A stretch of DNA of 56,105 bases, taken from Desulfitibacter sp. BRH_c19. GTDB taxonomy: Bacteria; Bacillota; DSM-16504; Desulfitibacterales; Desulfitibacteraceae. The stretch lies in NCBI GenBank assembly GCA_001515945.1, contig LOER01000042.1, positions 1 through 56,105 on the forward strand, in the 5' to 3' direction. The notes below the pieces were generated by a model. That model was not told the DNA's origin and made no database searches. It saw nothing but the letters and a program-made list of their open reading frames with translations. Both the position numbers and the translations under genes were made by a program. This document shows, piece by piece, positions 5,310-50,399 of this stretch; the stretch's first letter is position 1; each line of letters starts with the position of its first letter.

Positions 5310-6650
5310 TTATGCATTCCTGCCTTTATCTTCTGGAAGTATGATATTAAGGAATAACGCAACTAATGCAGCAACCACTATGCCAGACCCAGCAAATATC
5401 AACTTAATTGATTCTGGAAAAAACTGAAGTGCATCAGGTACAGATCCTAACCCTAATCCTAATCCCAAAGAAACTGCAACAATAAGAAGATTTCTACGGT
5501 TAAGTGCACTCTTAGTAATCAATACAATGCCTGAAGTAGCTATCATTGCAAACATAATTATAGCTGCTCCCCCAAGTACACTCTGAGGCATAACCGCTAT
5601 TAAAGCACCTAGTTTTGGAAAAAGAGCGGCAGCTATCAAGAAAAACGCACCTATAGTAACAACATATCGACTCATAACACCTGTAAAGGATACAATCCCT
5701 ACGTTTTGGCTATATGAAGTGTTTGGAAGTGCATTGAAGATTGCTGCAAAACTACTGGCTAAACCATCAGCTATAACACCACCTGATAATTCCTTGTCAG
5801 TTGCCTCTCTACCGGCACCACCTACAGTAATACCAGATATATCCCCTACTGTTTCAACTGTGGTTACTATAAACATAACTAGCATTGCTGCAATAGCAGG
5901 CCAATGGAAGGTCATTCCATACACAAAGGGCGTTGGAACTGAAAACCATGCTGCTTCACTTACTGCTGCAAAGTTAACCTTACCCATTGGAATAGCCACT
6001 AGATAACCAACAGTTATTCCTATCAATATGGCTGACATGCTAGCAAATCCCTTTAGATACTGATTACAAAATATAACTATTGCTAAAACAAGAAATCCTA
6101 AAAATAGATTGGAAAATGATCCAAAATCTGCGGCACCTACACCACCAGCAAAGTAATTAATACCTGTAGGCATTAAAGATAAACCAATTGTTAATAGAAC
6201 AGTACCAGTAACAACAGGAACAAAATACTTTCTTAATGTCTTTAAAAAGAAACCTAATACTGCCTCAAATAAACCTCCTATAAATGCAGCACCAAGAATT
6301 CCAGATAATCCATAAGCACCACCAATAGCAATTGATGTGGGAACAAAACCGAAGCTTGTACCCATAACAATAGGTAAATTCGCTCCTACAGGTCCAATTC
6401 TATTTGCCTGTACAAGTGTTGTAAGACCTGCCACAAGCATTGCACATTGGATCAAAAATGCTCTTTCACCTATGGTAAGACCAAGTACACCAGCAATGAT
6501 TATTGGTACTGTTACGTTTCCCGCAAACATTGCTAACACATGCTGTAAACCTAGTGGAATAGCTTCCTTTAGTGGTGGCTTGTCATCCACACCGTATACT
6601 TCTTTTACAGTAGTAGTTGGTTGACCAACCATTGTTTCATCATTTTCCAT
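5310..6650 (-). CDS. NCS2 uracil/xanthine-type permease, copy 1
   Basis: A 446-residue polytopic membrane protein with the NCS2 signature QNVGIVSFTGVMSR near residue 320 and glycine-rich helices typical of about 14 transmembrane segments. NCS2 carriers import xanthine, urate, guanine/hypoxanthine or uracil, usually with protons. It is preceded by a GntR regulator in the same direction. It has a nearly identical paralogue at 7936-9276: by eye about 20 residue differences over 446. ATG 6650 follows GGAGG. Xanthine or urate is the likely cargo from context, but the specificity residues cannot be assigned with certainty. Confidence 0.9.
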   Translation of the reverse strand: MENDETMVGQPTTTVKEVYGVDDKPPLKEAIPLGLQHVLAMFAGNVTVPIIIAGVLGLTIGERAFLIQCAMLVAGLTTLVQANRIGPVGANLPIVMGTSFGFVPTSIAIGGAYGLSGILGAAFIGGLFEAVLGFFLKTLRKYFVPVVTGTVLLTIGLSLMPTGINYFAGGVGAADFGSFSNLFLGFLVLAIVIFCNQYLKGFASMSAILIGITVGYLVAIPMGKVNFAAVSEAAWFSVPTPFVYGMTFHWPAIAAMLVMFIVTTVETVGDISGITVGGAGREATDKELSGGVIADGLASSFAAIFNALPNTSYSQNVGIVSFTGVMSRYVVTIGAFFLIAAALFPKLGALIAVMPQSVLGGAAIIMFAMIATSGIVLITKSALNRRNLLIVAVSLGLGLGLGSVPDALQFFPESIKLIFAGSGIVVAALVALFLNIILPEDKGRNA

Positions 6651-7935: not shown

Positions 7936-9276
7936 TTAAGCATTTCTACCAGTATCTTCTGGAAGTATGATATTAAGGAATAACGCAACTAATGCAGCAA
8001 CTACTATTCCTGAACCGGCAAATATTAGTTTAACTGACTCTGGAAAGAACTGAAGTGCATCAGGTACAGATCCTAATCCTAATCCTAATCCCAAAGAAAC
8101 TGCAACGATAAGAAGATTTCTACGGTTAAGTGCACTCTTAGTAATCAATACAATACCTGAAGTTGCTATCATTGCAAACATAATTACAGCTGCTCCTCCA
8201 AGTACGCTTTGAGGCATTACCGCTATTAAAGCTCCCAATTTCGGGAAAAGGGCTGCAGCTATCAAGAAAAACGCACCTATTGTAACAACCCAGCGACTCA
8301 TAACACCTGTAAAGGATACAATCCCTACGTTTTGGCTATATGAAGTGTTTGGAAGTGCATTAAAGATTGCGGCAAAACTACTTGATAAACCATCTGCTAT
8401 AATACCGCCTGATAATTCTTTGTCAGTAGCTTCTCTACCTGCACCACCTACAGTAATACCAGATATATCTCCTACTGTTTCAACTGTGGTTACTATAAAC
8501 ATAATTAACATTGCTGCAATTGCTGACCAATGGAAGGTCATTCCATACACAAAGGGCGTTGGAATTGAAAACCATGCTGCTTCACCTACTGCTGCGAAGC
8601 TAACCTTACCCATTGGTATAGCCACTAAGTAACCAACAACTATTCCTATCAATATGGCCGACATGCTAGCAAATCCCTTTAGAAACTGATTACAAAATAT
8701 AACTATTGCTAAAACAAGAAATCCTAAAAATAGATTAGAAAAAGAGCCAAAATCTGCGGCACCTACACCGCCTGCAAAGTAATTAATACCTGTGGGCATT
8801 AGTGATAAACCAATTGTTAATAATACAGTACCAGTTACAACAGGAACAAAATACTTTCTTAATGTCTTCAAAAAGAAGCCTAATACCGCCTGGAATAAAC
8901 CTCCTATAAATGCAGCTCCAAGGATTCCAGATAATCCATAAGCACCACCAATAGCAATTGATGTAGGAACAAAACCGAAACTAGTACCCATTACAATTGG
9001 TAGATTGGCACCTACAGGTCCAATTTTATTTGCCTGCACAAGAGTTGTAAGGCCAGCCACAAGCATTGCACATTGAATTAAAAATGCTCTTTCACCTATG
9101 GTAAGACCAAGCACACCAGCAATGATTATTGGTACTGTTACGTTTCCCGCAAACATTGCTAAGACATGCTGCAAACCGAGTGGAACGGCTTCCTTTAGCG
9201 GTGGCTTATCGTCAACATCATATACTGCTTTTACAGTAGTAGTCGGTTGACCAACCATGGTTTCTTCTTTTTCCAT
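7936..9276 (-). CDS. NCS2 uracil/xanthine-type permease, copy 2
   Basis: Second 446-residue NCS2 permease, nearly the same as the one at 5310-6650, with the same QNVGIVSFTGVMSR signature. Differences are scattered and mostly conservative (for example Ile/Val, Tyr/Phe, Lys/Arg), with a few in loops (Glu/Gln, Ser/Gly), so both copies look intact and under selection. ATG 9276 follows AAGGGGG. The cognate GntR copy upstream is broken, so this permease may be controlled by the surviving GntR acting from a distance, or may have lost regulation. The cargo is probably a purine such as xanthine or urate. Confidence 0.9.
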   Translation of the reverse strand: MEKEETMVGQPTTTVKAVYDVDDKPPLKEAVPLGLQHVLAMFAGNVTVPIIIAGVLGLTIGERAFLIQCAMLVAGLTTLVQANKIGPVGANLPIVMGTSFGFVPTSIAIGGAYGLSGILGAAFIGGLFQAVLGFFLKTLRKYFVPVVTGTVLLTIGLSLMPTGINYFAGGVGAADFGSFSNLFLGFLVLAIVIFCNQFLKGFASMSAILIGIVVGYLVAIPMGKVSFAAVGEAAWFSIPTPFVYGMTFHWSAIAAMLIMFIVTTVETVGDISGITVGGAGREATDKELSGGIIADGLSSSFAAIFNALPNTSYSQNVGIVSFTGVMSRWVVTIGAFFLIAAALFPKLGALIAVMPQSVLGGAAVIMFAMIATSGIVLITKSALNRRNLLIVAVSLGLGLGLGSVPDALQFFPESVKLIFAGSGIVVAALVALFLNIILPEDTGRNA

Positions 9277-9984: not shown

Positions 9985-11310
9985 TTATGATATCCCTGCT
10001 CTTTTCTTTATCTTCTTAAGAATTTCATTGCTCTGTTTAACTACCTTATCTTTATCTATAGTCTTTAGCTCTCTATTTTCCATTAATATTTTACCATCTA
10101 CCATTGATAGATTTACATCAGATACCCTGGCTGAATATACAAGAAGTGAATATGGATTAACTCCGGCTACAGGGTTGAGGTGAGGCTCATCCAAAGAAAT
10201 CATTACTAAATCAGCCTTCTTCCCTACCTCAATGGAACCAATCTCCTGTTCTAAGCCCATAGCTCTAGCACCACCTAATGTAGCCATTTTGAATACTTCC
10301 TTGGCAGGCATTATTGTTGGCCCATGGAGAGGTTTTTGGATTAATGCAGCCATTTTCATTTCTTGAAAGACATCTAGGTTGTTATTAGCAGGAGAGCCAT
10401 CTGCACCCAATGAGACTGTAATGCCCCTTTTTAACATTTCTGGTATAGGAGCTATTCCTGAGGATAATTTTATGTTGCAAGTTGGGCAATGGGCAACCTT
10501 TACATCCCTTTTCTCAAGAACATCCATTTCTTCATCATTAAGCCAAATGCAGTGAGTTAATATCAGGTTAGGAGCAGCCATACCTATATGGTCTAGATAT
10601 AAGACATTCCTCATACCCCTTTCCCTCTCAACAATTTCTATTTCCCCTTTATTTTCAGAAGCATGGGTATGCACCCTAACTCTATATTTTTCACTTAAGG
10701 CGACTACTTCTTTCAGAAGTTCTTCAGTACAAGATACTACAAATCTTGGAGTAAAGGCATATTGTATTCTGCCGTTTTCCCTGCCGTGCCATTTTTCAAG
10801 TAAGTCTACACTTTCCTGAATAGCATCATTAGTTGACTGTATTAATGTACCAGGAACATCATCACCATGGTCCATCATAACCTTTCCTGTGGTTGCCCTG
10901 ATACCACTTTCAGCAATTGCATGAACAGCAGCATCAGTATGATGAACAGTCTGCATATCAACAAGAGAAGTAGTACCTCCTAGTAGTAACTCTGATATTC
11001 CTAGAAGAGCAGATTGATATAAGCTTTCTGCATCATGAGCACCCTCAAGTGGCCAGATTCGCTTTTTTAACCAGTCTAATAGTTCAAGATCATCTGCCTG
11101 ACTCCGAAATAGGGTTTGAGAAAGATGAACATGAGTCTGTATAAGTCCTGGTATCAACAACTTTCCTTCTCCATAAATTACTCTATCAGCATGTGGCTCT
11201 TCATTTCCTATATATGCAATACGATTGTTGTCAACTAATACATTGCCTTGAAAAACGGCCTCTTGTGGATTCATCGTTACTATAGTAGGTCCTTTGAAAA
11301 GTATCTTCAC
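9985..11310 (-). CDS. Amidohydrolase, guanine/adenosine-deaminase-like (TrzN/AtzA superfamily)
   Basis: A 441-residue metal-dependent deaminase. Zinc ligands are visible: THVHLSQ places His60 and His62, VHTHASEN gives a central His, LTHCIWL another His, and SLGADGSPANNN the catalytic Asp. The family includes guanine deaminases, S-adenosylhomocysteine/5'-deoxyadenosine deaminases and s-triazine hydrolases. It lies just downstream of the purine/nucleoside ABC transporter genes and ahead of the purine permeases, so deamination of an imported purine or nucleoside is the natural reading. GTG 11310 is the start, with GGAGAC upstream. It is distinct from the SsnA- and 8-oxoguanine-deaminase-like enzymes elsewhere in the window. 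The exact base is unresolved. Confidence 0.8.
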   Translation of the reverse strand: MKILFKGPTIVTMNPQEAVFQGNVLVDNNRIAYIGNEEPHADRVIYGEGKLLIPGLIQTHVHLSQTLFRSQADDLELLDWLKKRIWPLEGAHDAESLYQSALLGISELLLGGTTSLVDMQTVHHTDAAVHAIAESGIRATTGKVMMDHGDDVPGTLIQSTNDAIQESVDLLEKWHGRENGRIQYAFTPRFVVSCTEELLKEVVALSEKYRVRVHTHASENKGEIEIVERERGMRNVLYLDHIGMAAPNLILTHCIWLNDEEMDVLEKRDVKVAHCPTCNIKLSSGIAPIPEMLKRGITVSLGADGSPANNNLDVFQEMKMAALIQKPLHGPTIMPAKEVFKMATLGGARAMGLEQEIGSIEVGKKADLVMISLDEPHLNPVAGVNPYSLLVYSARVSDVNLSMVDGKILMENRELKTIDKDKVVKQSNEILKKIKKRAGIS

Positions 11311-11352: not shown

Positions 11353-12288
11353 CTATCTATCTTCCCTATCATAAGCCTGCATTAATGCTCCTGGAGCACC
11401 AATCCTATTCTTTTGGGTTTGTCTAGTAGCAAAAATAAGAACTGCAATTGTAAATAAATATGGGAGCATACTAAGGAAGTAAGCCGGAAAAGCTACACCA
11501 ATGGCTTGTAGCCTAAAGGCTAATGCTGATACTCCACCGAAGAGATATGCCCCTATTACTGCTCTAGAAGGGTTCCATGTGGCAAATATCACCAATGCAA
11601 CTGCTATCCAACCTCTACCTGCTGTCATATTTTCTAACCATGTAGGTGCAAATGCCAAGGCAAGGTACGCACCTGCAATACCTGAAAATACTCCACCTAT
11701 GATTACATACGTATATCTGATAGCAAACACATTAATTCCCAAAGAATCAGCTGCTCCTGGATTTTCGCCTACTGATCTCATCTTTAGACCTGCATTAGTT
11801 CTATATATAAAGAACCATAATAGTGGCACTAGTAAATAGCTTATATACACTAAAGCATCTTGTCTAAATAATATTGTTCCTAAAAATGGGATATCACTTA
11901 AATATGGAATTGCAATCTTTGTAAATGTTTGAGGCGCAGGAATTCCAATAAGGGACTTACCAATAAAGCCACTAAATCCTGTGCCAAATATTGTTAGGGC
12001 AAGACCGCTTACTACCTGATTGGCCTTGAGTGATACACAAAGGAATGCGTGTATGGCTGCTACAGCACCACCTGCTACCATACCGGCTAATAAACCTATC
12101 CAAGGGTTTCCGGTATTTATAGCTACCATAAAGCTCATAACTGCACCTACTAACATCATTCCTTCAATTCCCAAGTTTAATACGCCTGTTCTTTCTGCCA
12201 AAATTTCTCCTAATGCAGCATATAGAATGGGAGTTCCAGTAGCAATAGCAGCAGTCAAAACTGTAATGAGTAATACTGAGTAATCCAT
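11353..12288 (-). CDS. BMP-type nucleoside/purine ABC transporter permease (NupQ-like)
   Basis: A 311-residue membrane protein of the branched-chain/ribose permease superfamily. The GILYAALGEILAERTGVLNLGIEGMMLVGA segment (about residues 20-50; quoted as landmarks TPILYAALGE and GVLNLGIEGM) is typical of the smaller permease in BMP-family systems. It has about nine hydrophobic segments. The start codon overlaps the stop of the upstream permease as TAATG, indicating translational coupling. It forms a four-gene operon with the lipoprotein, ATPase and larger permease, and the deaminase follows 42 bases after. The transporter probably imports guanosine/purine nucleosides or bases. Confidence 0.9.
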   Translation of the reverse strand: MDYSVLLITVLTAAIATGTPILYAALGEILAERTGVLNLGIEGMMLVGAVMSFMVAINTGNPWIGLLAGMVAGGAVAAIHAFLCVSLKANQVVSGLALTIFGTGFSGFIGKSLIGIPAPQTFTKIAIPYLSDIPFLGTILFRQDALVYISYLLVPLLWFFIYRTNAGLKMRSVGENPGAADSLGINVFAIRYTYVIIGGVFSGIAGAYLALAFAPTWLENMTAGRGWIAVALVIFATWNPSRAVIGAYLFGGVSALAFRLQAIGVAFPAYFLSMLPYLFTIAVLIFATRQTQKNRIGAPGALMQAYDREDR

Positions 12289-13400
12289 TATGACTGCCCC
12301 CCTTTTTCATTGGTTTTAGTGCTTCTTTTAACCCTTATTTTATAACGGTAGAATACTTCCCCGCCTAGTACAAAGAATAATATTAAGCCCTGAATCATAT
12401 TCGAAGTTGTTATTGGTAAACCAATGGACTGAACGGACTGTCCTCCCACAACCAAGCCTCCAAATAAGAAGGAAACAACCACAATAGCAAATGGATTAAG
12501 TTTAGATAGCCAAGCGATAATAATGGCTGTATATCCATAGCCTGGTGACATTATCGGCTGCAGCCTATGAGTCAGACCTGCAGCTTCTACCATCCCAGCA
12601 ATTCCTGCCAATCCACCACTAAGTGCAAGAACCAGCAGAATATTTCGTTTGATATCCATACCTGCATAACGTGCAGCATTCTGGCTCTCTCCAATTACCC
12701 TTATCTCATATCCCCATTTGGTTCTTTTTAATAAGAAATAAATAACCACCGCAAGTATTAGTGCAATAAATATACCCGTATGAACCCTTGTACCTGCAAT
12801 CTTTGAAAGAGTAGCAGCATCTGAAAAGGGTGCAGTTAACGGAAAGTTAAATCCTGCTGGATCTTTCCATGAGCCATATACAAAGAAGGAAACCCATAAT
12901 ATAGCTACATAGTTTAGTAAAAGACTCGTGATTGTTTCATTCACATCAAGAAGTGCTCTAGGAATAGCAGGTAATAGTCCCCAAAAAGCACCCCCTACAA
13001 AACCAAAAAGCAACATTGTTGGAAGTACCAAGAACCCAGGAAGTCCAGGCATAAAAAGTGCTACATAACTAGCAGCCCAGGCACCTATATAGAGCTGTCC
13101 TTCTGCGCCAATATTCCACAGCTGCATTCTAAAGGCAATTGATACAGCTAGACCAGTTAATGTCAATGGAATTGCCTTAATCATTGTCTCTGAAATGCCA
13201 TACTTCGAGCCAAAGGCACCCTTTAACATAACTTGATAGACTTCTATAGGCTTGTAACCAGTAAGATATATAAAAATTGCGCCAGCAAGAAAGGCTAAGA
13301 TTATAGATATAATCGGAACAACAATAGTTACAATTTTAGATGGGATTAGTCTTTTTTCAAATTTCAAAGAAACTGTACCAATCTTGTTAGATTTACTCAT
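12288..13400 (-). CDS. BMP-type nucleoside/purine ABC transporter permease (NupP-like)
   Basis: A 370-residue membrane permease, the larger partner of the protein encoded at 11353-12288. It has an N-terminal cytoplasmic lead, a first membrane helix around residues 25-50, and the conserved LWNIGAEGQLYIGAWAA region near residue 95 that identifies this permease family. A later AGMDIKRNILLVLALSGGLAG segment (landmarks AGMDIKRN and SGGLAG) is the coupling region. ATG 13400 overlaps the end of the ATPase gene by eight bases and is preceded by AGGAGG. The role is uptake of purine nucleosides or bases, by family and context. Confidence 0.9.
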   Translation of the reverse strand: MSKSNKIGTVSLKFEKRLIPSKIVTIVVPIISIILAFLAGAIFIYLTGYKPIEVYQVMLKGAFGSKYGISETMIKAIPLTLTGLAVSIAFRMQLWNIGAEGQLYIGAWAASYVALFMPGLPGFLVLPTMLLFGFVGGAFWGLLPAIPRALLDVNETITSLLLNYVAILWVSFFVYGSWKDPAGFNFPLTAPFSDAATLSKIAGTRVHTGIFIALILAVVIYFLLKRTKWGYEIRVIGESQNAARYAGMDIKRNILLVLALSGGLAGIAGMVEAAGLTHRLQPIMSPGYGYTAIIIAWLSKLNPFAIVVVSFLFGGLVVGGQSVQSIGLPITTSNMIQGLILFFVLGGEVFYRYKIRVKRSTKTNEKGGQS

Positions 13401-14928
13401 TGCTATTTACCTCCTGGTCCAGTTTGCTTCCTGCCATTAACATTCCTACTTCTTCTACATTGGTTTCTTCGACAGCCTTTATATCCATAATAGCTCCCGC
13501 ATGCATTACTGCAATCTTATCGGACATTTTAAAAATCTCATCCAAATCTTCAGATATGAACAAAATAGCAGTTCCTGACTCTCTTTGGGCTAAAAGTATC
13601 TCATGAACAGCCTCTATTGCACTTACATCCAACCCTCTCACAGGATACACCGCAACTATAAGCTTCGGTTCACTTGACATCTCTCTTGCAAATAAAAGCT
13701 TTTGTAAGTTTCCACCAGACATTAGTTTGACAGGCTTGTCTATACCAGCAGATTTTACATTAAAGTCTTTTACGAGTTTACCAGCTTGCTCCTTGGCATG
13801 TTTGTTATCAATAAAGAGAGTATTACATACAGGCTTATGCCTATAGTTTTTTAAAATTACATTCTCTGTGCAGCATAGGTTTGGTACTAAACCCATACCT
13901 ACTCTATCCTCTGGAATATATGCCACCTTTGCTTCAATAATTTCCCTTGGAGTAGCATTTGTATAATCCTTATTTTCAATTTTAATTGAACCACCTGTAA
14001 CTTCACGAAGTCCTGTTATGACCTCTGCTAATTCTTTTTGTCCGTTCCCCGCCACACCTGCTATACCGATAATTTCCCCGCCTCTAATTTGAAGCTGTAT
14101 GTCCTTCAATGCAGGGTAACCTTTATCGCTTAGACAAGTAACATTATTTAATTCTAGCACTACCTCACCTGTTGTTGCTGGTTTCTTATCTGTCTGAGGC
14201 ATTAGTTCTCTTCCTACCATCATTTTAGTGAGTTCTTTTTTATCAGTATCTACCTTATTAACAGTTGAGATGGATTTTCCACCTCGTAAGACGGTAATCC
14301 GATCTGCCACTTCCATAACCTCATTTAGTTTATGAGTTATTATAATAACAGCTTTGCCTTCCTGCGCCATTTGTCTAAGGGTTCTAAAAAGTTCTTTGAC
14401 CTCTTGTGGCGTTAAAACTGCTGTCGGTTCATCCAAAATCAGTATTTCAGCACCACGATAAAGCATCTTTACTATTTCTACTCTTTGCTGTTCACCAACA
14501 GATAACTGCCAAACCTTAGCCTTTGGTTCTACCTTAAGAGCAAACTTTTTGGATATATCCTCTATTTCTTGCTCCACTTTTTCTTTATCAATAAATAATC
14601 CAACACTTTTCTTGCCAAGAATAATATTCTCAGCTACTGTAAATGGATGAACAAGGCGGAAATGCTGGTGTACCATTCCTATTCCTAGCTCAATCGCTTC
14701 CTTTGGTGAAGCTATTTTTACAGAATGGCCCTTGATAGAAATTTCTCCATCATCTTGAGAGTATAGCCCCGTTAAAATACTCATCAATGTACTTTTGCCG
14801 GCACCATTTTCTCCTAAAAGGGCATGTATCTCCCCAGCCCTTGCCTGAAAGTTTACATTATCATTTGCAATTACTCCTGGAAACTTTTTTGTTATAGAAT
14901 TCATTTCTACAAGTAGATTCTGAGGCAT
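13393..14928 (-). CDS. BMP-type nucleoside/purine ABC transporter ATPase (NupO-like)
   Basis: A 511-residue double ATPase. The first half has Walker A GENGAGKST near residue 38, signature LSVGEQQRVEI and Walker B LILDEPTAVLTP. The second half has a degenerate Walker A (GVAGNGQKEL), signature LMSGGNLQKL and a Walker B region reading VAVYPVRGLDVSA, where most relatives have QPTRGLDV; the Thr-to-Val change is a small oddity. Such asymmetric tandem ATPases are normal for sugar and nucleoside importers of this class. ATG 14928 follows AGGAGG. It lies between the lipoprotein gene (past a hairpin) and the permeases. Confidence 0.92.
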   Translation of the reverse strand: MPQNLLVEMNSITKKFPGVIANDNVNFQARAGEIHALLGENGAGKSTLMSILTGLYSQDDGEISIKGHSVKIASPKEAIELGIGMVHQHFRLVHPFTVAENIILGKKSVGLFIDKEKVEQEIEDISKKFALKVEPKAKVWQLSVGEQQRVEIVKMLYRGAEILILDEPTAVLTPQEVKELFRTLRQMAQEGKAVIIITHKLNEVMEVADRITVLRGGKSISTVNKVDTDKKELTKMMVGRELMPQTDKKPATTGEVVLELNNVTCLSDKGYPALKDIQLQIRGGEIIGIAGVAGNGQKELAEVITGLREVTGGSIKIENKDYTNATPREIIEAKVAYIPEDRVGMGLVPNLCCTENVILKNYRHKPVCNTLFIDNKHAKEQAGKLVKDFNVKSAGIDKPVKLMSGGNLQKLLFAREMSSEPKLIVAVYPVRGLDVSAIEAVHEILLAQRESGTAILFISEDLDEIFKMSDKIAVMHAGAIMDIKAVEETNVEEVGMLMAGSKLDQEVNSNE

Positions 14929-15022: not shown

Positions 15023-16141
15023 TTAAATGTCACCCTCAACACCTTGCACAAACCAATCAAATCCAAGTCTTTCGCCATCTGTCATAGCGGTTCCATCTGA
15101 AACCTTTACTGCACCTGATTGATCATTGATGGGACCAGCAAAAACATCTAAGTCTCCACTAATAATTTCTGCCTTAGCAGCTTCAACTGCTTCAATTATT
15201 TCAGGAGTCATAACATCTTCATTATAAGGTGCAAGACCTACTGCACCTTCAGCCATTGTTCCCCAATATTCATGAGTAGACCATGTTCCATCCATTACAG
15301 ACTCAACTGTGCTTACATAATATGGTCCCCAATTCCATACTGGACCTGTCAGAATAGCATTAGGAGCGAAATGTGTCATGTCAGAGTTATAGCTAATTCC
15401 CCAAGCGCCTCGTTCTTCTGCAGCCTGCATCGGCCCAGGAGTATCTTGGTGCTGAGCAATAACATCTGCACCCATATCTAATAAACTTAGTGCTGCATCT
15501 TTCTCAGTTCCTGGATCATACCAAGTGTTTGTCCATACAACATTTACTGTTGCATCTGGATTTACTGACTGAACTCCTAATGTAAAGGCATTTATTCCCC
15601 TAACAACCTCAGGAATTGGGAAAGCTCCCACATAGCCTATTTTATTAGATTCGGTTTTCATACCTGCAGCTATACCTGATAAATATCTTGCTTCATAAAT
15701 TCTACCAAAGTAAGTGGCCATATTATCTGCTGTTTTATAACCTGAGCAGTGCTCAAATACTACATCTGGATATTGTTCTGCAACATTAGCCATGTAATCC
15801 ATGTAACCAAAGCTTGTAGCAAAAATAACCTTGGCTCCATTTTCTGCAAGCTCAGTCATTACTCTTTCAGCATCTGGACCCTCTTCAACAGCTTCATAAA
15901 TTACAGTTTTTATTCCTGGTACATTTTCCTCCAAATACTTTCTTCCAAGATCATGGGCGTAAGTATAACCACCATCACCTGCAGGGCTAACATAAACAAA
16001 TCCTACTATAAACTCTTCTTCCTCAGCCTGAGGTTCTTCCACTCCTGGTTCCTCAGCATTTTGACCACCACAACCTGAAATAACCAATCCTAATGCCAAA
16101 ATTAATACTAGAAGCATACTCATTTTTTTAAACTTAATCAT
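15023..16141 (-). CDS. BMP-family substrate-binding lipoprotein (NupN/BmpA-like)
   Basis: A 372-residue binding lipoprotein. The start ATG 16141 is chosen because GAGGGGG lies 8 bases upstream and a classic lipoprotein signal follows directly: basic KFKKMS, a hydrophobic run, then lipobox ISGC with the acylated Cys at about residue 24. A longer reading from 16195 would put charged residues ahead of the signal peptide. The mature part has the BMP/PnrA pattern FIVGFVYVSPAGDGGYTYAH and QHQDTPGPMQAAEERG. It captures purine nucleosides or related compounds outside the cell. A purine riboswitch precedes the gene on the same strand, which supports guanine, hypoxanthine or their nucleosides as cargo. 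Confidence 0.9.
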   Translation of the reverse strand: MIKFKKMSMLLVLILALGLVISGCGGQNAEEPGVEEPQAEEEEFIVGFVYVSPAGDGGYTYAHDLGRKYLEENVPGIKTVIYEAVEEGPDAERVMTELAENGAKVIFATSFGYMDYMANVAEQYPDVVFEHCSGYKTADNMATYFGRIYEARYLSGIAAGMKTESNKIGYVGAFPIPEVVRGINAFTLGVQSVNPDATVNVVWTNTWYDPGTEKDAALSLLDMGADVIAQHQDTPGPMQAAEERGAWGISYNSDMTHFAPNAILTGPVWNWGPYYVSTVESVMDGTWSTHEYWGTMAEGAVGLAPYNEDVMTPEIIEAVEAAKAEIISGDLDVFAGPINDQSGAVKVSDGTAMTDGERLGFDWFVQGVEGDI

Positions 16142-16372
16142 TACTTGTAACCCCCTCTTTTTTAGATCGATGTTTTTATTTACCTCTTGCTCCATGTAAA
16201 GACCTAGTACACTTAATGAGATTCTGGTTTTACAACCACCTCCGTATACACTCCGTATAAAACTATTCTTTACATTTCTCTTATATATTTTAATTCCTAC
16301 TTAGGGATAAGTCTATCATAAATTTACCTTAAAAAGGCTTAGAAAAATTAAGTTAGGCTTAATTTTAAAAAC

Positions 16373-16412
16373 AAAAACCCCACCACGAAGGAAATAATCC
16401 TCCGTAGTCGGG
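16373..16412 (-). terminator. Riboswitch expression-platform terminator
   Basis: On the minus strand ACTACGGAGGA pairs with TCCTTCGTGGT across a five-base loop (11 pairs, two of them G-T). Three further C-G pairs lie outside a single G-G mismatch, and TTTTTGTTTTT follows. Its left arm uses the J3/1 bases GACTA and the 3' strand of aptamer helix P1. Confidence 0.85.
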
Positions 16413-16468
16413 TTATTTATGGTTCCCGGTAGAAACTCCCAAACCATATTATTGGGATTATACGAAAA
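16399..16468 (-). promoter_or_regulatory. Purine riboswitch aptamer (guanine/hypoxanthine class)
   Basis: Read on the minus strand, the segment has the landmark order of the purine aptamer. J1/2 is TATAAT. P2 is CCCAA paired with TTGGG around the seven-base loop AATATGG. J2/3 is AGTTTCTACC. P3 is CGGG paired with CCCG around a loop with CCATAAA. J3/1 is GACTA. The ligand-reading base in GACTA is C, which pairs with guanine-type ligands (adenine switches have T/U). P1 is short and G-U rich (TTTTCG with CGGAGG). It lies 258 bases upstream of the binding-lipoprotein start. The terminator shares P1 and J3/1 bases, so aptamer and terminator exclude each other; ligand binding should favour read-through. 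Confidence 0.9.
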
Positions 16469-16759
16469 TCAAAAACATATTTATATCTTATTATTTTATC
16501 TACTGCCTTTTGTAATTAATTCTTCATAAGTTCTAAGAATCCTTCTTTTGAGAAAATAGAAATTATAAATAAATAGAATATTGTAAATCTATTTTAAAAT
16601 TTACATAAGTTATGTTATTATGTTGTTTATCATTTCATTGTTGCAGTGTTTGGTTAGGCATCTAGACATTGTAAATTGCTATGAACAATACTAATGTTTG
16701 GAGGTGAATTATTAAATACTCTAAGGAAATACACATCATAAAAATCGCGAGGTGACATT
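16469..16759. other. Divergent promoter region between riboswitch and symporter
   Basis: No gene seen. Very AT-rich. It contains the inverted repeat TGTAAAT, ten bases, ATTTACA at 16582-16605, placed between the two divergent transcription units, a possible regulator site for the plus-strand symporter. Confidence 0.4.
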
Positions 16760-19604: not shown

Positions 19605-20954
19605 TTACTTATACTCTCCATATTTTTTTCCGGCGTTAATCATTGCATGGAGATTATCTGCTTCAGCATCATCAAGTACCGATCCATTGCTTAAAATAAA
19701 GCCTCCATCTTGGGCAACATTTTCCATTAGAAACTTTACATACTCTTCTACTTGCTGAGGTGTACCAACTTTTAGCATAGAGCCTGGTACGTTACCACCA
19801 AAGCAGGCCTTGCCTCCCAGAGCTTTCTTTACACTAACCATGTCAGTTGTATCAAAGAGCCACATTGTTTTTCCTTCTGGAATATCTGAATCCATTATAT
19901 CATTGAGCCTCTGGTTGTATCCGCCTTCAGCAAATAGATATGGGACCAGCCCCTCGTTTATTAACCCTAATATGACAGCCTTAAGAGTTGGCCAATAAAA
20001 CTTGTTAAAATCATTACTTGAAAGAAAACCATCTGCACCTTTATGCAGCGGAATAAAGATTATTGGTACACCACTAGAATTAGCAGCCCGCACACCCATG
20101 TCTACGTTTAGTGCCACAAGTCTATCAAGAGCTTCTAACAGCTTCTTGGGCCGACGGAACATGTCCAGCATGATTGGGCGAGTTCCTCTCATGGTATCCC
20201 CTAGGGTATCAAAGGGTGCCTTTGCAAAACCACCCATAAATCCTGGAAGTCCTTGGGTAGCTTGAATCTCACCTTCCATAGCTCCTATGGCACCTATCCA
20301 CTCAAGAGCAGCATCCCCAGCCTGCATCAGCTTTTTAAGTGATTCTTGAATCGCAGGTATACCAAAGGGAATCATGGATGGCCCTGCAAATGGAAGCTCT
20401 ATGATATCTGTAAATGAAGTCATCGCTGCCCACGGAGCCATAACGCCAAATGTACGAGGTAGATAGTAACGCATCCAGTAAGCTGATGGGTCATTTATAA
20501 GCAAGTCATATTCTTCATCCAACATATATTCTTTTTCAACATATTGATAGGGAGTTTCTGGAGATAATCCTCCTCCACCAGGCCATTGATACAACTTATA
20601 ATCTAAAATTTCAAAGACCTTGCCTGGACCCGCGGTTAAACCGCTAGTAAGTGTATCAATTTCAAATTCTTTATTAAACTTTTTATAAGCTATTCCAAGC
20701 TTTTCATAATCGTACATCATATCTTCTGGGGTAAAGCCTGCATGAAATGCTGGAAAAGCACCAACTGCTAAAGCAATGGGAACCCTTGAAGGTTTTTTAA
20801 GTTCTATTACATCTTTAAGCATCTGAACTCTATCCTTGTATGCTTTTTCCACTTCTGGGCTTGCAAATTTAATAGCAGGATTTGCAAATCTTTTAAACCT
20901 TTCTTCATACTTCTCTTGTGCTGATAGCTTTTCCCAGTTATCAGTCAATTTCAT
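19605..20954 (-). CDS. URO-D-superfamily corrinoid methyltransferase
   Basis: A 449-residue protein of the uroporphyrinogen decarboxylase superfamily. True HemE is about 350 residues and not paired with a corrinoid protein; here the stop-to-start gap to a corrinoid protein gene is one base, which marks a methyltransferase. The zinc-binding His-x-Cys of MtaA/MtbA is not seen; the equivalent strand reads LFAEGGYNQRL, followed by WLFDTTDM and CFGGNVPGSML, as in acetogen demethylases acting on methoxylated or methylated substrates. It should transfer a methyl group from a substrate to the partner corrinoid protein, or from it to an acceptor. ATG 20954 follows GGGGG. The methyl donor is not known. 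Confidence 0.82.
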   Translation of the reverse strand: MKLTDNWEKLSAQEKYEERFKRFANPAIKFASPEVEKAYKDRVQMLKDVIELKKPSRVPIALAVGAFPAFHAGFTPEDMMYDYEKLGIAYKKFNKEFEIDTLTSGLTAGPGKVFEILDYKLYQWPGGGGLSPETPYQYVEKEYMLDEEYDLLINDPSAYWMRYYLPRTFGVMAPWAAMTSFTDIIELPFAGPSMIPFGIPAIQESLKKLMQAGDAALEWIGAIGAMEGEIQATQGLPGFMGGFAKAPFDTLGDTMRGTRPIMLDMFRRPKKLLEALDRLVALNVDMGVRAANSSGVPIIFIPLHKGADGFLSSNDFNKFYWPTLKAVILGLINEGLVPYLFAEGGYNQRLNDIMDSDIPEGKTMWLFDTTDMVSVKKALGGKACFGGNVPGSMLKVGTPQQVEEYVKFLMENVAQDGGFILSNGSVLDDAEADNLHAMINAGKKYGEYK

Positions 20955-20955
20955 A

Positions 20956-21597
20956 TTAGTTCCCCCCTATCCACTTTTTAGCTATGGAAACTGCTTCTAC
21001 AGCATCTTGTCCCCAGCCATCGGCACCAGTATATTCCTTAATCTGGTCATTAATAGGAGCCCCACCTATAAGAATTTTTACATTATCCCTTAGACCTGCA
21101 TCATCAATGGCTTTAACTGTGTCTTTCATTTTATCAAAGGCTAAGGTAAGTAGTGCACTCATACCTACTATTTGAGGATTATGCTCCTTTATAGCTTCCA
21201 CAAACTTGGAAGCTGGCACGTCCACTCCAAGATCATGAACCTTAAAACCGTTAATATCGAACATAAAGGCTACTATGTTTTTGCCAATGTCATGAATATC
21301 ACCCTGTACTGTACCAACTACCACTTTTCCAATATACTTGCTATCGTCTTCTTCAACTTCGTCTACCATCTTAGATTTTGTCAATTCCGATATCTTGGTC
21401 AGCATTTCCCCTGTTAAAATCAATTCTGGCATAAAAAATTCGCCTTTTTCATACTTTTCACCGATAATCTCAACTGCTTTACGAGCATTATCCAGAATTG
21501 CTATGGGATCCACATTTTGGTCTAATAACTCTTGAACTATATTTATGGCTTCTTCCTCACGCATCTCAACAATAGCACTAACTAATTTATCTAACAT
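20956..21597 (-). CDS. Corrinoid (B12-binding) methyl-carrier protein
   Basis: A 213-residue two-domain corrinoid protein of the MtbC/MttC type. Residues about 1-85 form the helical cap (methionine-synthase B12-binding module 1), with the pattern GEKYEKGEFFMPELILTGE. Residues about 88-210 form the Rossmann-like domain with GDIHDIGKN, in which the His is the lower cobalt ligand, then GVDVP, SALLTLAF and GGAPI. It shuttles the methyl group between the adjacent URO-D-type methyltransferase and an acceptor. ATG 21597 follows AGGGAGG. A near-perfect promoter is located at 21732-21760. Confidence 0.93.
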   Translation of the reverse strand: MLDKLVSAIVEMREEEAINIVQELLDQNVDPIAILDNARKAVEIIGEKYEKGEFFMPELILTGEMLTKISELTKSKMVDEVEEDDSKYIGKVVVGTVQGDIHDIGKNIVAFMFDINGFKVHDLGVDVPASKFVEAIKEHNPQIVGMSALLTLAFDKMKDTVKAIDDAGLRDNVKILIGGAPINDQIKEYTGADGWGQDAVEAVSIAKKWIGGN

Positions 21598-21731
21598 AGC
21601 ATCCTCCCTAAATATGATAATTTTACCTTTTTGTATAATATTCAGTTAATTTACACTACCCTCCCTTCTAGCTTATTCTAAAAGACTAAAGTTATTCCGT
21701 TTACAGAAAAGTAGAAACATTCTTGATATAA

Positions 21732-21760
21732 ATTATATAGTTATATATATAAGTTGTCAA
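21732..21760 (-). promoter_or_regulatory. Consensus sigma-70/sigma-A promoter
   Basis: On the minus strand TTGACA (21760-21755), exactly 17 bases, then TATAAT (21737-21732). Both hexamers are perfect consensus. It lies about 135 bases before the corrinoid protein start and should drive the corrinoid protein and URO-D-type methyltransferase genes at high level. Confidence 0.88.
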
Positions 21761-21805
21761 TTACCAATACATTGTAATTTTTAGAATATTTGTTTTTATT
21801 TATAT

Positions 21806-22462
21806 TTATTTGTCGACATCAATCAAACGTTGACAAATTCGCACTCCTTCAATTGCATCATTGCACCAAAATCTGGTCCCAACCAAACTTGCAACTTGTT
21901 GATTTATCTGTCCACCGCCAATAACAATAGGTATTTTGGCCCCGTGGGCTTGCGTTTCCTTATTTAGAAGGTTTATTGTTTCTTTCATTTTTTTATAAGA
22001 AACTGTCAATAATCCAGAAAGACCAACAATATTGGGCTGAAGCTCTCCAATCTTTTCTATAAATGTTATGGGGGCTACATCCACACCTAAATCATGTACC
22101 TTGAATCCATGGCAAGTAAGAAGTATGCTTAAGATATTTTTTCCTAAGTCATGGATATCCCCTTGCACAGTTCCAAGTAGTATACATCCATTGGACCCAT
22201 TGGAAGAATTGCTTCTAAGAAAAGGTTGTATAGTCTCTGTTACTTGACGAAATATCTCACCAGCCATAATCAGCCCTGCTATATAATATTGCCCCTGCTC
22301 ATAACGTTCTCCAACTAAACGCATCCCTCGTTGACAATCATCAATGATATGTAATGGGTCATCTCCAGATTCTATTCTCTTTAATACTAATTCACGCACA
22401 GCTTCTTCCTTTAAGTCTCCGATATTATTTATCAATTGTTCCCTTGCTGTCACGTTTTTCAT
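21806..22462 (-). CDS. Corrinoid (B12-binding) methyl-carrier protein, second
   Basis: A 218-residue corrinoid protein related to the one at 20956-21597 but clearly diverged. It has the helical cap (GERYEQGQYYIAGLIMAGE), then GDIHDLGKN with the cobalt-ligand His near residue 104, GVDVAP, SGLLTVSY and GGGQINQQV. It lies between a GntR regulator and the strong promoter at 21760, so it is probably co-transcribed with the regulator. No methyltransferase follows it directly, so it may share the URO-D-type enzyme or serve another in the window. ATG 22462 follows GGAGGG. Confidence 0.9.
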   Translation of the reverse strand: MKNVTAREQLINNIGDLKEEAVRELVLKRIESGDDPLHIIDDCQRGMRLVGERYEQGQYYIAGLIMAGEIFRQVTETIQPFLRSNSSNGSNGCILLGTVQGDIHDLGKNILSILLTCHGFKVHDLGVDVAPITFIEKIGELQPNIVGLSGLLTVSYKKMKETINLLNKETQAHGAKIPIVIGGGQINQQVASLVGTRFWCNDAIEGVRICQRLIDVDK

Positions 22463-37223: not shown

Positions 37224-38624
37224 TTATTTAGTATAATAAACATTATCAAGGGGCATTCCTAATTCAATTAACTCATTTCTAACTCGGTTATAGAGTGCTT
37301 CGTATTCAGGCGTAGGTCTCATGTTATCTAAATCAAAACATTCTTTTACACTATAACCTTTATCAGGAGTTGGTAATTTTTCTTCATACTTTGGCAATAT
37401 TTTCTTAGCTATTTCATTTGCCTGCTTCCTTGTCATACCAGCACAGGACTTAAATACTTCACCACACCACCAAGCTTCCATTGGAGTTAAATAATCTGTA
37501 TACCTACCTCCAGCTGATCTTGGTTGTGTTGTTTTAGAAGAACCAGACACACAATGATTCATCAATCCTACAGCAGCTTCATACATGAACATTTCAGTAC
37601 ATGGACCAGCTGTCTCATTAACAATTTTATTACGCATAATATTAGTATTTCTACTAACTGCTTGAGTTGAAACACTATTAGCCCATACTGCTTTACGTCC
37701 ACAATTACCGAATAACTGTAAGTCATATACATAGGAGCTGACATAGGTAGCTTGTAATATAACTGGTAGCAATAAATCTGTAGCAATATTTGCAAGAACA
37801 GCTCCTTCAGCTGGACCAGCATAACCACCTATATAGGAGAAACCGCCTGCTCTTATATTATGCCCACAATTTATTCCCATAACAATCCTATGGAAGTTAC
37901 TCATAGATGCTTTTAATTCCACCGGGCACAATGACATTGTATTATTTCCTTCACCAGGGAAAAATGCTGCTCCACCAAGATGACCATAATGTGTCACTGC
38001 ACCAGCAATTCCTGTATGGCCAATTCCAGGCCTTTCGGCTCTATATGTGGCTTGTCTTCTAAGTTCTGCTTCATATCTGCCCATTAATGTTTCATAAGGT
38101 GTTCCAGATCTAATTTTTTTGCCGTATACTGTTGCTAATGTAGGTCCATGTAAAACGTCTACTAACTTAGGATATTTAATCAGGCCTTCTGTAATTGGTA
38201 CATATAATTCTTCAGAAACCACAATTCCTAGGGATGCACATACAATTGGCTCCACAGTAGATTCGGGTCTCCTAGGTCTCATAACAACTTGGTCTTTCCC
38301 ACGTCCAAACTTTATCTCTTTAGGGTATGCTTTTAATGTCTGACGGATTTCTTCTTCTGTCACTTTGATGATACGTTCTGTATCAGTACAAAGCAAACCC
38401 ATTTCAAGTGCTAATTCGTAACCTGCTTTAAAAAATCGGTCTGCAAGATTGTCATCAGAACTTATTGGATTATCCATATCAAGGGTATTTTCTAATCCAT
38501 GTTCCTTTAATTTAGCTTTAATTGTCCTAGGTATAACTTTAGTATCCCATTCCTTAACTGAACATACAGGACCAGTATACGCTTTATCCAAACTATTCAT
38601 TATTGCTTGTATTCTAGCTGACAT
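37224..38624 (-). CDS. MtmB-like methylamine methyltransferase lacking pyrrolysine, copy 1
   Basis: A 466-residue protein that aligns through most of its length with archaeal monomethylamine methyltransferase (about 458 residues). Shared landmarks are FKAGYELALEMGLLCTDT, SGTPYETL, RPGIGHTG, IGGYAGPAE, AGPCTEM, TPMEAWWCGEV and KECFDLDNMRPTPEYEALY. In the archaeal enzyme the RPGMGV motif is followed by pyrrolysine and Gly; here the equivalent residue is Thr204 (codon ACA at 38015-38013), with no in-frame TAG. ATG 38624 follows GAGGGGG; an upstream TTG lacks spacing. A corrinoid protein gene sits 66 bases upstream. It should methylate that corrinoid protein from an N-methyl or other methylated donor that is probably not methylamine. 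A near-identical copy is at 55153. Confidence 0.88.
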   Translation of the reverse strand: MSARIQAIMNSLDKAYTGPVCSVKEWDTKVIPRTIKAKLKEHGLENTLDMDNPISSDDNLADRFFKAGYELALEMGLLCTDTERIIKVTEEEIRQTLKAYPKEIKFGRGKDQVVMRPRRPESTVEPIVCASLGIVVSEELYVPITEGLIKYPKLVDVLHGPTLATVYGKKIRSGTPYETLMGRYEAELRRQATYRAERPGIGHTGIAGAVTHYGHLGGAAFFPGEGNNTMSLCPVELKASMSNFHRIVMGINCGHNIRAGGFSYIGGYAGPAEGAVLANIATDLLLPVILQATYVSSYVYDLQLFGNCGRKAVWANSVSTQAVSRNTNIMRNKIVNETAGPCTEMFMYEAAVGLMNHCVSGSSKTTQPRSAGGRYTDYLTPMEAWWCGEVFKSCAGMTRKQANEIAKKILPKYEEKLPTPDKGYSVKECFDLDNMRPTPEYEALYNRVRNELIELGMPLDNVYYTK

Positions 38625-38690
38625 TTGCTCTTTCCCCCTCTTATTCAATTTTATTATGTTTCAACGAATATATGGCTAATAAGTTACTGT

Positions 38691-39383
38691 TTATGCTTTA
38701 CCCATGTCAACTACTTCTATTTGTTGTCCAGGTGCTTTACTAGATTTCATGATAGTCTTACAAAGTTCTACTGCATCTGTGGCATTTCTACCATATCCGT
38801 CTGCTCCAATTTTTTCTGCCCAATCTGACGTTATGGGTCCACCACCGACAATACAATAATATTTATCACGTAGACCTGCATCCTTTAAATATGCAATAAT
38901 ATCCTCCTGATATGGCATTGATGTTGTTAATAATGTAGAAGACGCAATAATTGAAGCTCCTACTTCCTGAGCCTTATCAACAAATGCTTTAGGATCAACA
39001 TCTACTCCTAAGTCATATACTTCAAATCCATTTACTGAAAGCAAGGCAGATACCACATTTTTGCCAATATCATGTAAATCACCTTTAACCTGTCCGATGA
39101 CTATCTTGCCCATCCTTTCTGCACCGGCTTCGTCCCCAAGTGCAGCTAATACTAGTTTTAGAATTTCTGTCATAGAATCTCCTGCTAGTATTAGTTCTGG
39201 CAGGTAGGCAGTTCCTTCGCTAAATCGGTCACTAACAAGCTTTAACCCTTTTGTTCCACCTTTTTCCATAATCTCTAGTGGGGGTATCCCACCTTCTATT
39301 CCCTCTTTTACTATAGCTACAGCCTCCTCCACTTCTCCCTCAGCTATAGCATTACTCAGCCTTTCAAATAACTGATCTTTCAT
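38691..39383 (-). CDS. Corrinoid methyl-carrier protein (MtmC-like)
   Basis: A 230-residue corrinoid protein, the apparent partner of the MtmB-like enzyme encoded next. The helical cap (about 1-90) holds DRFSEGTAYLPELILAGDSM. The cobalamin domain has GDLHDIGKN with the cobalt-ligand His near residue 107, GVDVDP, STLLTTSM and GGGPI. A short C-terminal tail (SSKAPGQQIEVVDMGKA) extends past the usual end. AAGGAGG precedes ATG 39383. It lies between the molybdenum hydroxylase 2Fe-2S gene and the MtmB-like gene, in the same direction. Confidence 0.93.
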   Translation of the reverse strand: MKDQLFERLSNAIAEGEVEEAVAIVKEGIEGGIPPLEIMEKGGTKGLKLVSDRFSEGTAYLPELILAGDSMTEILKLVLAALGDEAGAERMGKIVIGQVKGDLHDIGKNVVSALLSVNGFEVYDLGVDVDPKAFVDKAQEVGASIIASSTLLTTSMPYQEDIIAYLKDAGLRDKYYCIVGGGPITSDWAEKIGADGYGRNATDAVELCKTIMKSSKAPGQQIEVVDMGKA

Positions 39384-47201: not shown

Positions 47202-48659
47202 TTATGAACGGTTCTTATTAAAGTCCTGATATGCGCGGTACATAATACTTTGTAATTCCTTTTCAATCTCATAAGAAAGCTCTACTGGCTTGTGCTCTTT
47301 TATTAAGGATAAGTACCTATCACGTGCACGCTCAATTATTCCTTTACTTCCCTTGTCAACCCAGGTGGGTCTAGAGATAGTGTTAAATAGGGTTGACTTA
47401 TAGTTTTCTCTAAAGTGCTTAAATGTGTGTTCCATGTCTATAAAAGCTTCCCGACCTTGTAGGTCTAATAACTCTTGTAGTGCAATAGTGTCCTTATTAA
47501 TTTCATGCCCCTTTTTGACTTCTTTGGCATACCTAAATAACTCATCATCTATTATTAGCTGTAGAGAACTAGCAGTTTTCCCCGTTTCCACATGCCCTAC
47601 ATCTCCAAGTATGGTTGCTCCTGATAGACTAACTAACTGTGTAATGAATGCATCTGTAGAAACACTTTCTGCACCCACATCAAAAGCATCTGAACCTCCT
47701 GCAAAGCTATGACAGGGTAATCCATAGCCTTCTTCTATTAACTGGGTTACTATCATTCTAGCCATAATAGTGGAGATATTTGCTTGTAGCGCATGTGTAC
47801 TCACCATGTCCATTTCATACATGATGGGAGTTAAGATGCAGGGAGTTCCCTGTCCAATGCATTGAACCATTATAGTCATGGCAATAGTTTCAGCAGCAGC
47901 CATTACCGCCACCCCTGCAGGAGTAATGGGAGCATTTGCACCCGCTGTAGGCAGCGAACATACATGAATGGGAATTTTATGAATACCGCTTTGATAGATA
48001 GCTTCAGAATCCATGTACTTGAGATCAAAGGGAGAAGCCGAGCAGGATATGTTGCTGATAATAGGTCTCTTTTGAAGCTCCGATACACCACCAACAAGTA
48101 CTGCCGCCATTTCAATTAAGTACCTTACATTCTTGGTTTCATATGGCTGTAACCATCCATGCTTTGTAGAATGGTGCAGTACATTATAAAAAGCGTGTAT
48201 ATCTATCATTTCTGATGGAAAATCGTTTGCCTTCACGGTGAGCAACGACCAAAAATCAATATTCTCAAGGGCCTGGGTAATGCTGATATAATCGATCAGA
48301 TCTCTTTTAGCAACCTCACGGTATTCACCTGTAAGTGCATCAATATAGTACATGGCACCTGTGATTGCTCGTGTATAGAAAAGTCCTTGTGGATGCGGAA
48401 TGTGCAGATCATACTTTGAATCTATTCCAGCCAAGACAAAGCTTCTAGGTGCTTGACCCAACATTTCCTCCTGCAGCTCCCTTGGAAATAATACTTTTCC
48501 AGTTTGGTTGGATATTTTTGCCCCAGCTTTTTTTAGATATGCCAGAACATCCGGATGATCAACCATCATACCTTGTTTCTCCAACAGCTCAATAACACTA
48601 TTTTTCATCAAATCAAGCTCTTCTTCAGTTGCTATCTTTAACCGTAAATCCTTCGCCAT
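47202..48659 (-). CDS. MttB-superfamily methyltransferase, paralogue 1 (no pyrrolysine codon)
   Basis: A 485-residue member of the trimethylamine methyltransferase (MttB) superfamily. Landmarks are TKHGWLQPYE near residue 165, TAGANAPITPAG near residue 238 and GDVGHVETGKT near residue 355. The frame is open throughout, with no in-frame TAG, so it belongs to the non-pyrrolysine group whose known members demethylate quaternary amines (glycine betaine, proline betaine, carnitine). It is clearly a paralogue of the protein encoded upstream at 48875-50329. AGGAGG precedes ATG 48659. The placement immediately ahead of a molybdenum hydroxylase gene points to a methylated N-heterocycle as substrate; that is inference. 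Confidence 0.87.
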   Translation of the reverse strand: MAKDLRLKIATEEELDLMKNSVIELLEKQGMMVDHPDVLAYLKKAGAKISNQTGKVLFPRELQEEMLGQAPRSFVLAGIDSKYDLHIPHPQGLFYTRAITGAMYYIDALTGEYREVAKRDLIDYISITQALENIDFWSLLTVKANDFPSEMIDIHAFYNVLHHSTKHGWLQPYETKNVRYLIEMAAVLVGGVSELQKRPIISNISCSASPFDLKYMDSEAIYQSGIHKIPIHVCSLPTAGANAPITPAGVAVMAAAETIAMTIMVQCIGQGTPCILTPIMYEMDMVSTHALQANISTIMARMIVTQLIEEGYGLPCHSFAGGSDAFDVGAESVSTDAFITQLVSLSGATILGDVGHVETGKTASSLQLIIDDELFRYAKEVKKGHEINKDTIALQELLDLQGREAFIDMEHTFKHFRENYKSTLFNTISRPTWVDKGSKGIIERARDRYLSLIKEHKPVELSYEIEKELQSIMYRAYQDFNKNRS

Positions 48660-48701
48660 TCAAATCCTCCTTTGTCTGTTGAAATATTCAATAGTTATTT
48701 T

Positions 48702-48736
48702 AAATTTTTTAATTTTTTAAATTTTTTAAATTTTTT
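48702..48736. repeat. AAATTTTTT short tandem repeat
   Basis: Four head-to-tail copies of AAATTTTTT (one copy lacks an A) in the leader of MttB-like paralogue 1. Low-complexity; may affect promoter spacing. Confidence 0.8.
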
Positions 48737-48770
48737 ATGATTTTATGATAACTTCTTTTATACCAAAAAA

Positions 48771-48810
48771 AACTGTAATGGACTAAAAGTCTGAATAGTC
48801 CATTACAGTT
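48771..48810 (-). terminator. Terminator between the two MttB-like genes
   Basis: AACTGTAATGGACT and AGTCCATTACAGTT form a perfect 14-bp stem with a 12-base loop, followed on the minus strand by TTTTTTGG. It separates MttB-like paralogue 2 (upstream) from paralogue 1 (downstream). Confidence 0.9.
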
Positions 48811-48874
48811 GATATGTTAGATAAGCTAACAAGTCATATAAATATATTAGTTTCATTTATTTTTACTAATATTT

Positions 48875-50329: not shown

Positions 50330-50365
50330 TTTTCCCCGCCTCCTAGATTTTATTGTATAAAAAAA

Positions 50366-50399
50366 CCACACTAAAGGTAACCAAGTTACTTTAGTGTGG
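50366..50399 (-). terminator. Leader terminator/attenuator ahead of MttB-like paralogue 2
   Basis: CCACACTAAAG(G)TAAC pairs with GTTACTTTAGTGTGG around a three-base loop, with seven Ts following on the minus strand. Only 37 bases separate it from the start codon, including the ribosome site, leaving no room for a promoter. MttB-like expression should therefore depend on read-through. Confidence 0.8.

Follow-up and report, generated by a model that had tools for sequence, protein, structure and literature searches.

The window analyzed here, a 56,105-nucleotide stretch of contig LOER01000042.1 of Desulfitibacter sp. BRH_c19, contains a single cmscan match to Rfam above the gathering score, a purine riboswitch (RF00167) located upstream of a five-gene operon. 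The match runs from 16485 to 16385 on the minus strand, covers the full length of the model (positions 1–102) and has a score of 78.8 bits (E = 1.8e-12), clearing the gathering threshold of 37 bits. An earlier reading made from the sequence alone (hereafter, the sequence-only reading) had proposed a guanine-type riboswitch here without giving its strand; the covariance-model match bears out the family assignment and sets the strand. The features of the locus are as follows.

16385..16485, minus strand: purine riboswitch aptamer with a guanine-I core (full-length RF00167 match, cmscan)
16461..16468, minus strand: P1 5' strand, UUUUCGUA (covariance-model alignment)
16437..16457, minus strand: P2/L2; the tunebox, i.e. 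the two junction-proximal pairs, consists of canonical U-A and C-G
16429..16436, minus strand: J2/3, GUUUCUAC, with U51 at 16431 and without insertion (sequence compared with the classes in PMC9295807)
16409..16428, minus strand: P3/L3, with unpaired A residues adjoining L3 (covariance-model alignment, non-standard pairs marked)
16407, minus strand: C74, the guanine-class specificity nucleotide, in the J3/1 context GACUA (covariance-model alignment)
16399..16406, minus strand: P1 3' strand, UACGGAGG, which doubles as part of the terminator left arm (terminator scan and coordinates)
16376..16414, minus strand: intrinsic terminator hairpin with a left arm made of the P3 3' strand, J3/1 and the P1 3' strand (−26.6 kcal/mol)
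16367..16377, minus strand: U-tract, UUUUUGUUUUU (U5GU5; from the sequence)
16287..16315, minus strand: promoter-like TAGACT-N17-TAAAAT between the terminator and the first gene (aligned in two congeners)
15023..16195, minus strand: BMP/PnrA-like substrate-binding lipoprotein, operon gene 1 (PF02608, E = 9e-61)
13393..14928, minus strand: ABC transporter ATPase
12288..13400, minus strand: ABC transporter permease 1
11353..12288, minus strand: ABC transporter permease 2
9985..11310, minus strand: amidohydrolase, the last conserved operon gene (best NCBIfam match, 5'-deoxyadenosine deaminase)

With U51 in J2/3, C74 in J3/1 and zero junction insertions, the aptamer has the sequence of the guanine-I class, confirming the proposed guanine type. 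It has neither the one-nucleotide J2/3 insertion nor the J3/1 insertion of guanine-II, and U51 is retained, without the U51G of xanthine-II. The loops are AAUAUGG (L2) and CCAUAAA (L3). One usual, though not defining, guanine-I trait, OFF regulation, does not agree with the wiring, in which the terminator left arm overlaps P1 and P3 and predicts otherwise. P1 (UUUUCGUA/UACGGAGG) had been described as weak and G-U rich, and is so: it contains three G-U pairs, has a computed stability of −5.4 kcal/mol with flanking bases, and is weaker than in 91% of 162 purine riboswitches compared.

The BMP lipoprotein likely starts at 16142, preceded by GAGGGGG, and the amidohydrolase is kin to guanine and 8-oxoguanine deaminases. 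The window further encodes a nearly complete set for reductive uric acid degradation, a pathway described in PMC12507026, where riboswitches are not mentioned. The set comprises an XdhD-like protein, YgfK (1535 bits), SsnA (637), YgeY (699), a HyuA-like dihydropyrimidinase and carbamate kinase, as well as YgeW-like and YgeX-like proteins assigned from position and similarity; additional xanthine dehydrogenase subunits and two xanthine permeases are encoded as well. The catabolic setting is thus stronger than the sequence-only reading knew when it linked the operon to purine import for fermentation: genes of purine degradation are present, but fermentation itself is deduced from the genes. The two xanthine permease genes (5310–6650 and 7936–9276, minus strand) form a near-identical tandem pair around a GntR-type regulator and, judging by that near-identity, are a recent duplication. 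Interspersed among the purine-degradation genes, at 19605–22462, 37224–39383 and 47202–50371, are several genes whose products look by eye like corrinoid proteins and MtaA/MttB-like methyltransferases.

The core stem of the terminator (16408–16382) has 11 bp, 5 of them G-C, and is followed by the U5GU5 tract; the extended stem spans 16414–16376. Its left arm, AACCCGACUACGGAGGA, is made of the P3 3' strand, J3/1 and the P1 3' strand, so that aptamer and terminator are directly mutually exclusive. The sequence-only reading had correctly assigned the J3/1 and P1 3' bases to this arm but was incomplete, as the P3 3' strand also belongs to it. When the sequence downstream was shuffled 200 times with dinucleotides preserved, and a left arm of J3/1 and P1 3' was required, no shuffle (0/200) gave a hairpin as stable as the observed −17.4 kcal/mol (shuffled mean, −4.3 kcal/mol; best, −11.6 kcal/mol). 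The computed energy of the terminator state, −33.9 kcal/mol, lies far below that of the aptamer state, −15.8 kcal/mol; termination would thus be the default, and control must be kinetic. A stem built from P3 3', J3/1 and P1 3' and a tunebox paired by U-A and C-G are both properties of the pbuE-type platform.

Two congeners (G001/L026 and G002/L032) carry the same aptamer and terminator stem before a five-gene operon of unchanged content and order, with protein identities of 78–79% for the BMP lipoprotein, 82–83% for the ATPase, 79–85% for the permeases and 89% for the amidohydrolase. Although their flanks have diverged strongly, the three species all retain an intact aptamer core, C74 and both loops included. 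The terminator stem is identical in all three, changes being confined to the loop and to positions beyond the stem, and covariation in these three identical stems is uninformative either way. The P1 5' strand varies, and in both congeners a non-standard pair falls at one and the same position, a pattern that would be expected if the terminator constrained the 3' strand. Another conserved block (~16555–16515, minus strand; AAGnAGGATTnTT...GAATTA), similar to the terminator left arm GGAGGAUU, is shared by the three congeners some 90 nt 5' of the aptamer. In both congeners, CRISPR-Cas-like genes (by eye) directly follow the amidohydrolase (L168 7515–17322; L111 516–8897).

We conclude, from sequence, from conservation in the two congeners and from the survey of other genomes described below, that the guanine-I riboswitch is very probably a transcriptional ON switch of the pbuE type, as the sequence-only reading had suggested. 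As the leader is transcribed, the aptamer would fold; binding of a purine in the three-way junction (most likely guanine, possibly hypoxanthine or xanthine) would hold P1 and P3, the terminator left arm would be unavailable, and the polymerase would read into the BMP transporter and amidohydrolase genes. With no ligand, the downstream strand would invade P1 and P3, the terminator would form and transcription would stop. Following the scheme for pbuE (PMC7707468), the ligand would have to hold P1/P3 until the polymerase passes the U-tract. Against this reading, the ligand-bound P1, which is weak and contains a non-standard pair in each congener, might lose to strand invasion.

The direction of the response depends on there being no element that reverses the logic, as happens in xpt and most guanine-I riboswitches. 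If a hidden upstream antiterminator or a second downstream terminator were present, the riboswitch would be an OFF switch, like guanine-I riboswitches commonly (PMC9295807), the 4/4 guanine riboswitches of C. difficile (PMC11477304) and 108 of the 162 purine riboswitches of our survey. The surveyed OFF members have a separate terminator, mostly starting 50–110 nt after P1 3', and mostly a segment complementary to P1 3' (GGTTTCACTC against GAGTGAAA). A scan of 210 nt of the remaining leader detected no such terminator, and this candidate was rejected. An upstream antiterminator was likewise rejected, since upstream pairing with the terminator left arm does not exceed chance (154/300 shuffles as low). 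For the right arm there is no clear upstream partner either; the best, moderately good at −14.3 kcal/mol (25/300 shuffles as low), belongs to the aptamer itself (J2/3–P3 region), which means that a bound ligand would still work against termination. Given the overlapping terminator and the lack of a second terminator or of a clear upstream antiterminator, the latter being the element that the sequence-only reading had named as capable of overturning its view, ligand binding should prevent termination, and we regard OFF regulation as very unlikely.

A different objection is that the aptamer has decayed or is bypassed, leaving the hairpin as a constitutive terminator and the operon driven from the promoter-like block at 16315–16287. 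This block, which aligns in three species, might start riboswitch-independent transcripts and so bypass the riboswitch in part or in whole, and the very weak P1 would agree with decay. Yet a promoter scan found about as many sites as in shuffles (8 vs 6.8), and the conservation of the aptamer core, C74, both loops and the terminator stem makes such a loss of function highly improbable. Canonical guanine-I pockets are only ~10-fold selective against hypoxanthine and xanthine (PMC9295807), one guanine-class riboswitch of C. difficile is xanthine-responsive (PMC11477304), and genes for xanthine permeases and xanthine dehydrogenases lie in the window, all of which would suit an ON switch whose natural ligand is xanthine, hypoxanthine or some other uric acid pathway intermediate. 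The core, however, has none of the substitutions of the xanthine-II or 2'-dG classes, and a separate riboswitch with a xanthine-II-like U51G is present in the same genome; a natural ligand other than guanine is possible but rather doubtful.

Guanine riboswitches are the textbook OFF switch. We searched up to 249 genomes of the phylum for RF00167 and classified 162 loci, calling a riboswitch ON if the terminator left arm uses J3/1 and P1 3'. An initial hairpin classifier with looser criteria took long irregular hairpins for ON wiring in many OFF members and was replaced by a stricter one, by which 28 loci were strong ON (n ≥ 9 shared bases and ≤ −15 kcal/mol) and 95 were OFF, with terminators of −12 kcal/mol or stronger. 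The classifier called ON 4/4 of the T74 (adenine) members that precede adenine deaminase or pbuE-like genes, including two of a second sample. First downstream genes were clustered and then named by Pfam, T74 members being left out of the comparison of gene and sign. With gene categories that were set after the first survey was seen, catabolic first genes were ON at 14 of 15 loci (XdhA 7, XdhB 4, amidohydrolase 2, formiminotransferase 1), compared with 2 of 42 for biosynthesis or salvage genes (PurE, PurK, PurD, PurC, PurB, GuaA, GuaB, Xpt), a difference with p = 2e-10 by locus and p = 2.5e-5 by family (9:1 vs 2:19). AzgA permeases were mostly OFF (33 to 2), and BMP transporters were mixed (6 ON, 13 OFF).

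The second sample was drawn largely from a single order of Bacilli, and its three catabolic loci belong to families already in the first sample. It gave ON wiring at 3/3 catabolic vs 1/27 biosynthesis or salvage loci; among its classified loci, XdhA (2/2) and amidohydrolase (1/1) were ON, and PurE (5/5), PurK (12/12) and Xpt (9/10) were OFF. Class-wide searches around G082, G113 and G045, with 3 genomes each, added almost nothing. The ON members do not all have the canonical guanine-I core, many being A73G (GGCUA) or otherwise changed; those beyond the genus with a canonical core include L047, L048, L066, L122, L128 and L257. The association of gene and sign is not absolute, since an OFF-wired guanine riboswitch precedes xanthine-dehydrogenase-like genes in the congener G002 (L009; L169). 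ON wiring of guanine riboswitches, which the sequence-only reading considered unusual, is thus indeed a minority form, but a recurrent one.

Both signs occur upstream of BMP transporters. Among 80 BMP relatives from named genomes, a purine riboswitch was found at 25 loci, with ON wiring in a congener and in Moorella sulfitireducens and OFF wiring in Carboxydocella, Thermincola, Desulforamulus, Geosporobacter, Sporomusa and others; the predominance of OFF riboswitches on related BMP genes counts against the ON reading of the Desulfitibacter locus. In a quick BMP tree with two very long branches, L027 and L140, that are probably wrong ORFs, the ON members fall in three places, at least two of them forced by well supported branches.

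In xpt/pbuE chimeras, a guanine aptamer on the pbuE platform needs a fully paired P2 tunebox and an A-A mismatch in P3 (PMC7707468). In the survey, the tunebox was paired in 18/23 ON vs 37/83 OFF members (p = 0.005) and, in the second sample, in 14/16 vs 7/32 (p = 2e-5), both p values being inflated by shared ancestry. This enrichment in natural members predicted to be ON matches the chimera requirement. A distal P3 mismatch was rejected as an ON hallmark, with no difference between ON and OFF members (1/15 vs 1/72; the present aptamer was excluded for its shorter P3). The same applies to a weak P1: across the survey, median P1 strengths were −8.2 and −8.0 kcal/mol in ON and OFF members, respectively (p = 0.50), which places the weak P1 of Desulfitibacter outside the ON design.

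The Desulfitibacter riboswitch has the same aptamer fold as the guanine-I riboswitches of B. subtilis xpt-pbuX and yxjA (RF00167) and agrees with them at every specificity position, U51 and C74 among them. In xpt and yxjA, however, guanine promotes a separate terminator (OFF), whereas here aptamer and terminator are in direct competition (ON). With the adenine riboswitch of B. subtilis pbuE it has in common the ON architecture, a terminator whose formation disrupts P1 and P3 (PMC7707468), the paired P2 tunebox and an A mismatch near L3; pbuE has U74 and controls efflux, in contrast to C74 and control of import and degradation. Guanine riboswitches commonly lower expression (PMC9295807), as does that of nupR in B. 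thuringiensis (PMC9430930), and ON regulation was predicted for the guanine-II, xanthine-II and 2'-dG-III variants (PMC9295807). The guanine-II riboswitches of Paenibacillus resemble the present one in its probable guanine sensing and predicted ON regulation but have J2/3 and J3/1 insertions and precede phosphoribosyltransferase genes. Xanthine-II shares the overlapping terminator that predicts ON and the link to purine-degradation genes, but carries U51G and insertions and binds xanthine (PMC9295807). Our search of the open-access literature turned up no guanine-I ON riboswitch, and subscription journals or supplements could hold one. The aptamer class is known and so is the platform type; their pairing is new.

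On balance, we favor the view that a guanine-I ON form recurs in several Bacillota families and couples purine availability to catabolism or catabolic uptake. The sign would follow the fate of the purine (ON where it is degraded, OFF where it is made or salvaged), with repeated sign changes upstream of one transporter family and the P2 tunebox shifting with the platform. ON control of uptake and deamination would fit a purine-burning cell. If guanine-I riboswitches take either sign according to whether the genes make or burn purines, neither genome annotation nor drug work targeting guanine riboswitches can read the direction of regulation off the aptamer. Such regulation would also provide a direct regulatory input to clusters for anaerobic uric acid degradation. 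Natural guanine aptamers on pbuE-type platforms test which features, such as the P2 tunebox and the P3 mismatch, are needed for strand-invasion ON switching, a question so far studied mainly in engineered chimeras.

Two further groups of sequences came to light. In Bacilli, ON-wired purine riboswitches precede a FAD/NAD-binding dehydrogenase-like gene (L291, L293, L294, L295, L309, L315, L317, L319, L321, L329 and L338); they mostly have a changed J2/3–P3 region (CUACAAGG) in place of the guanine-I core and possibly represent a variant ligand class. The other purine riboswitch of the Desulfitibacter genome (L002 506–610, minus strand, contig C5; also L170) has U51G and a J3/1 insertion, is xanthine-II-like as are L325, L331 and L337, and has a long overlapping terminator, with the contig end 505 nt downstream. 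On its 3' side is a tandem array (L170 1–385) of a 56-nt unit in 6.9 copies, 99% identical, which reaches the contig end.
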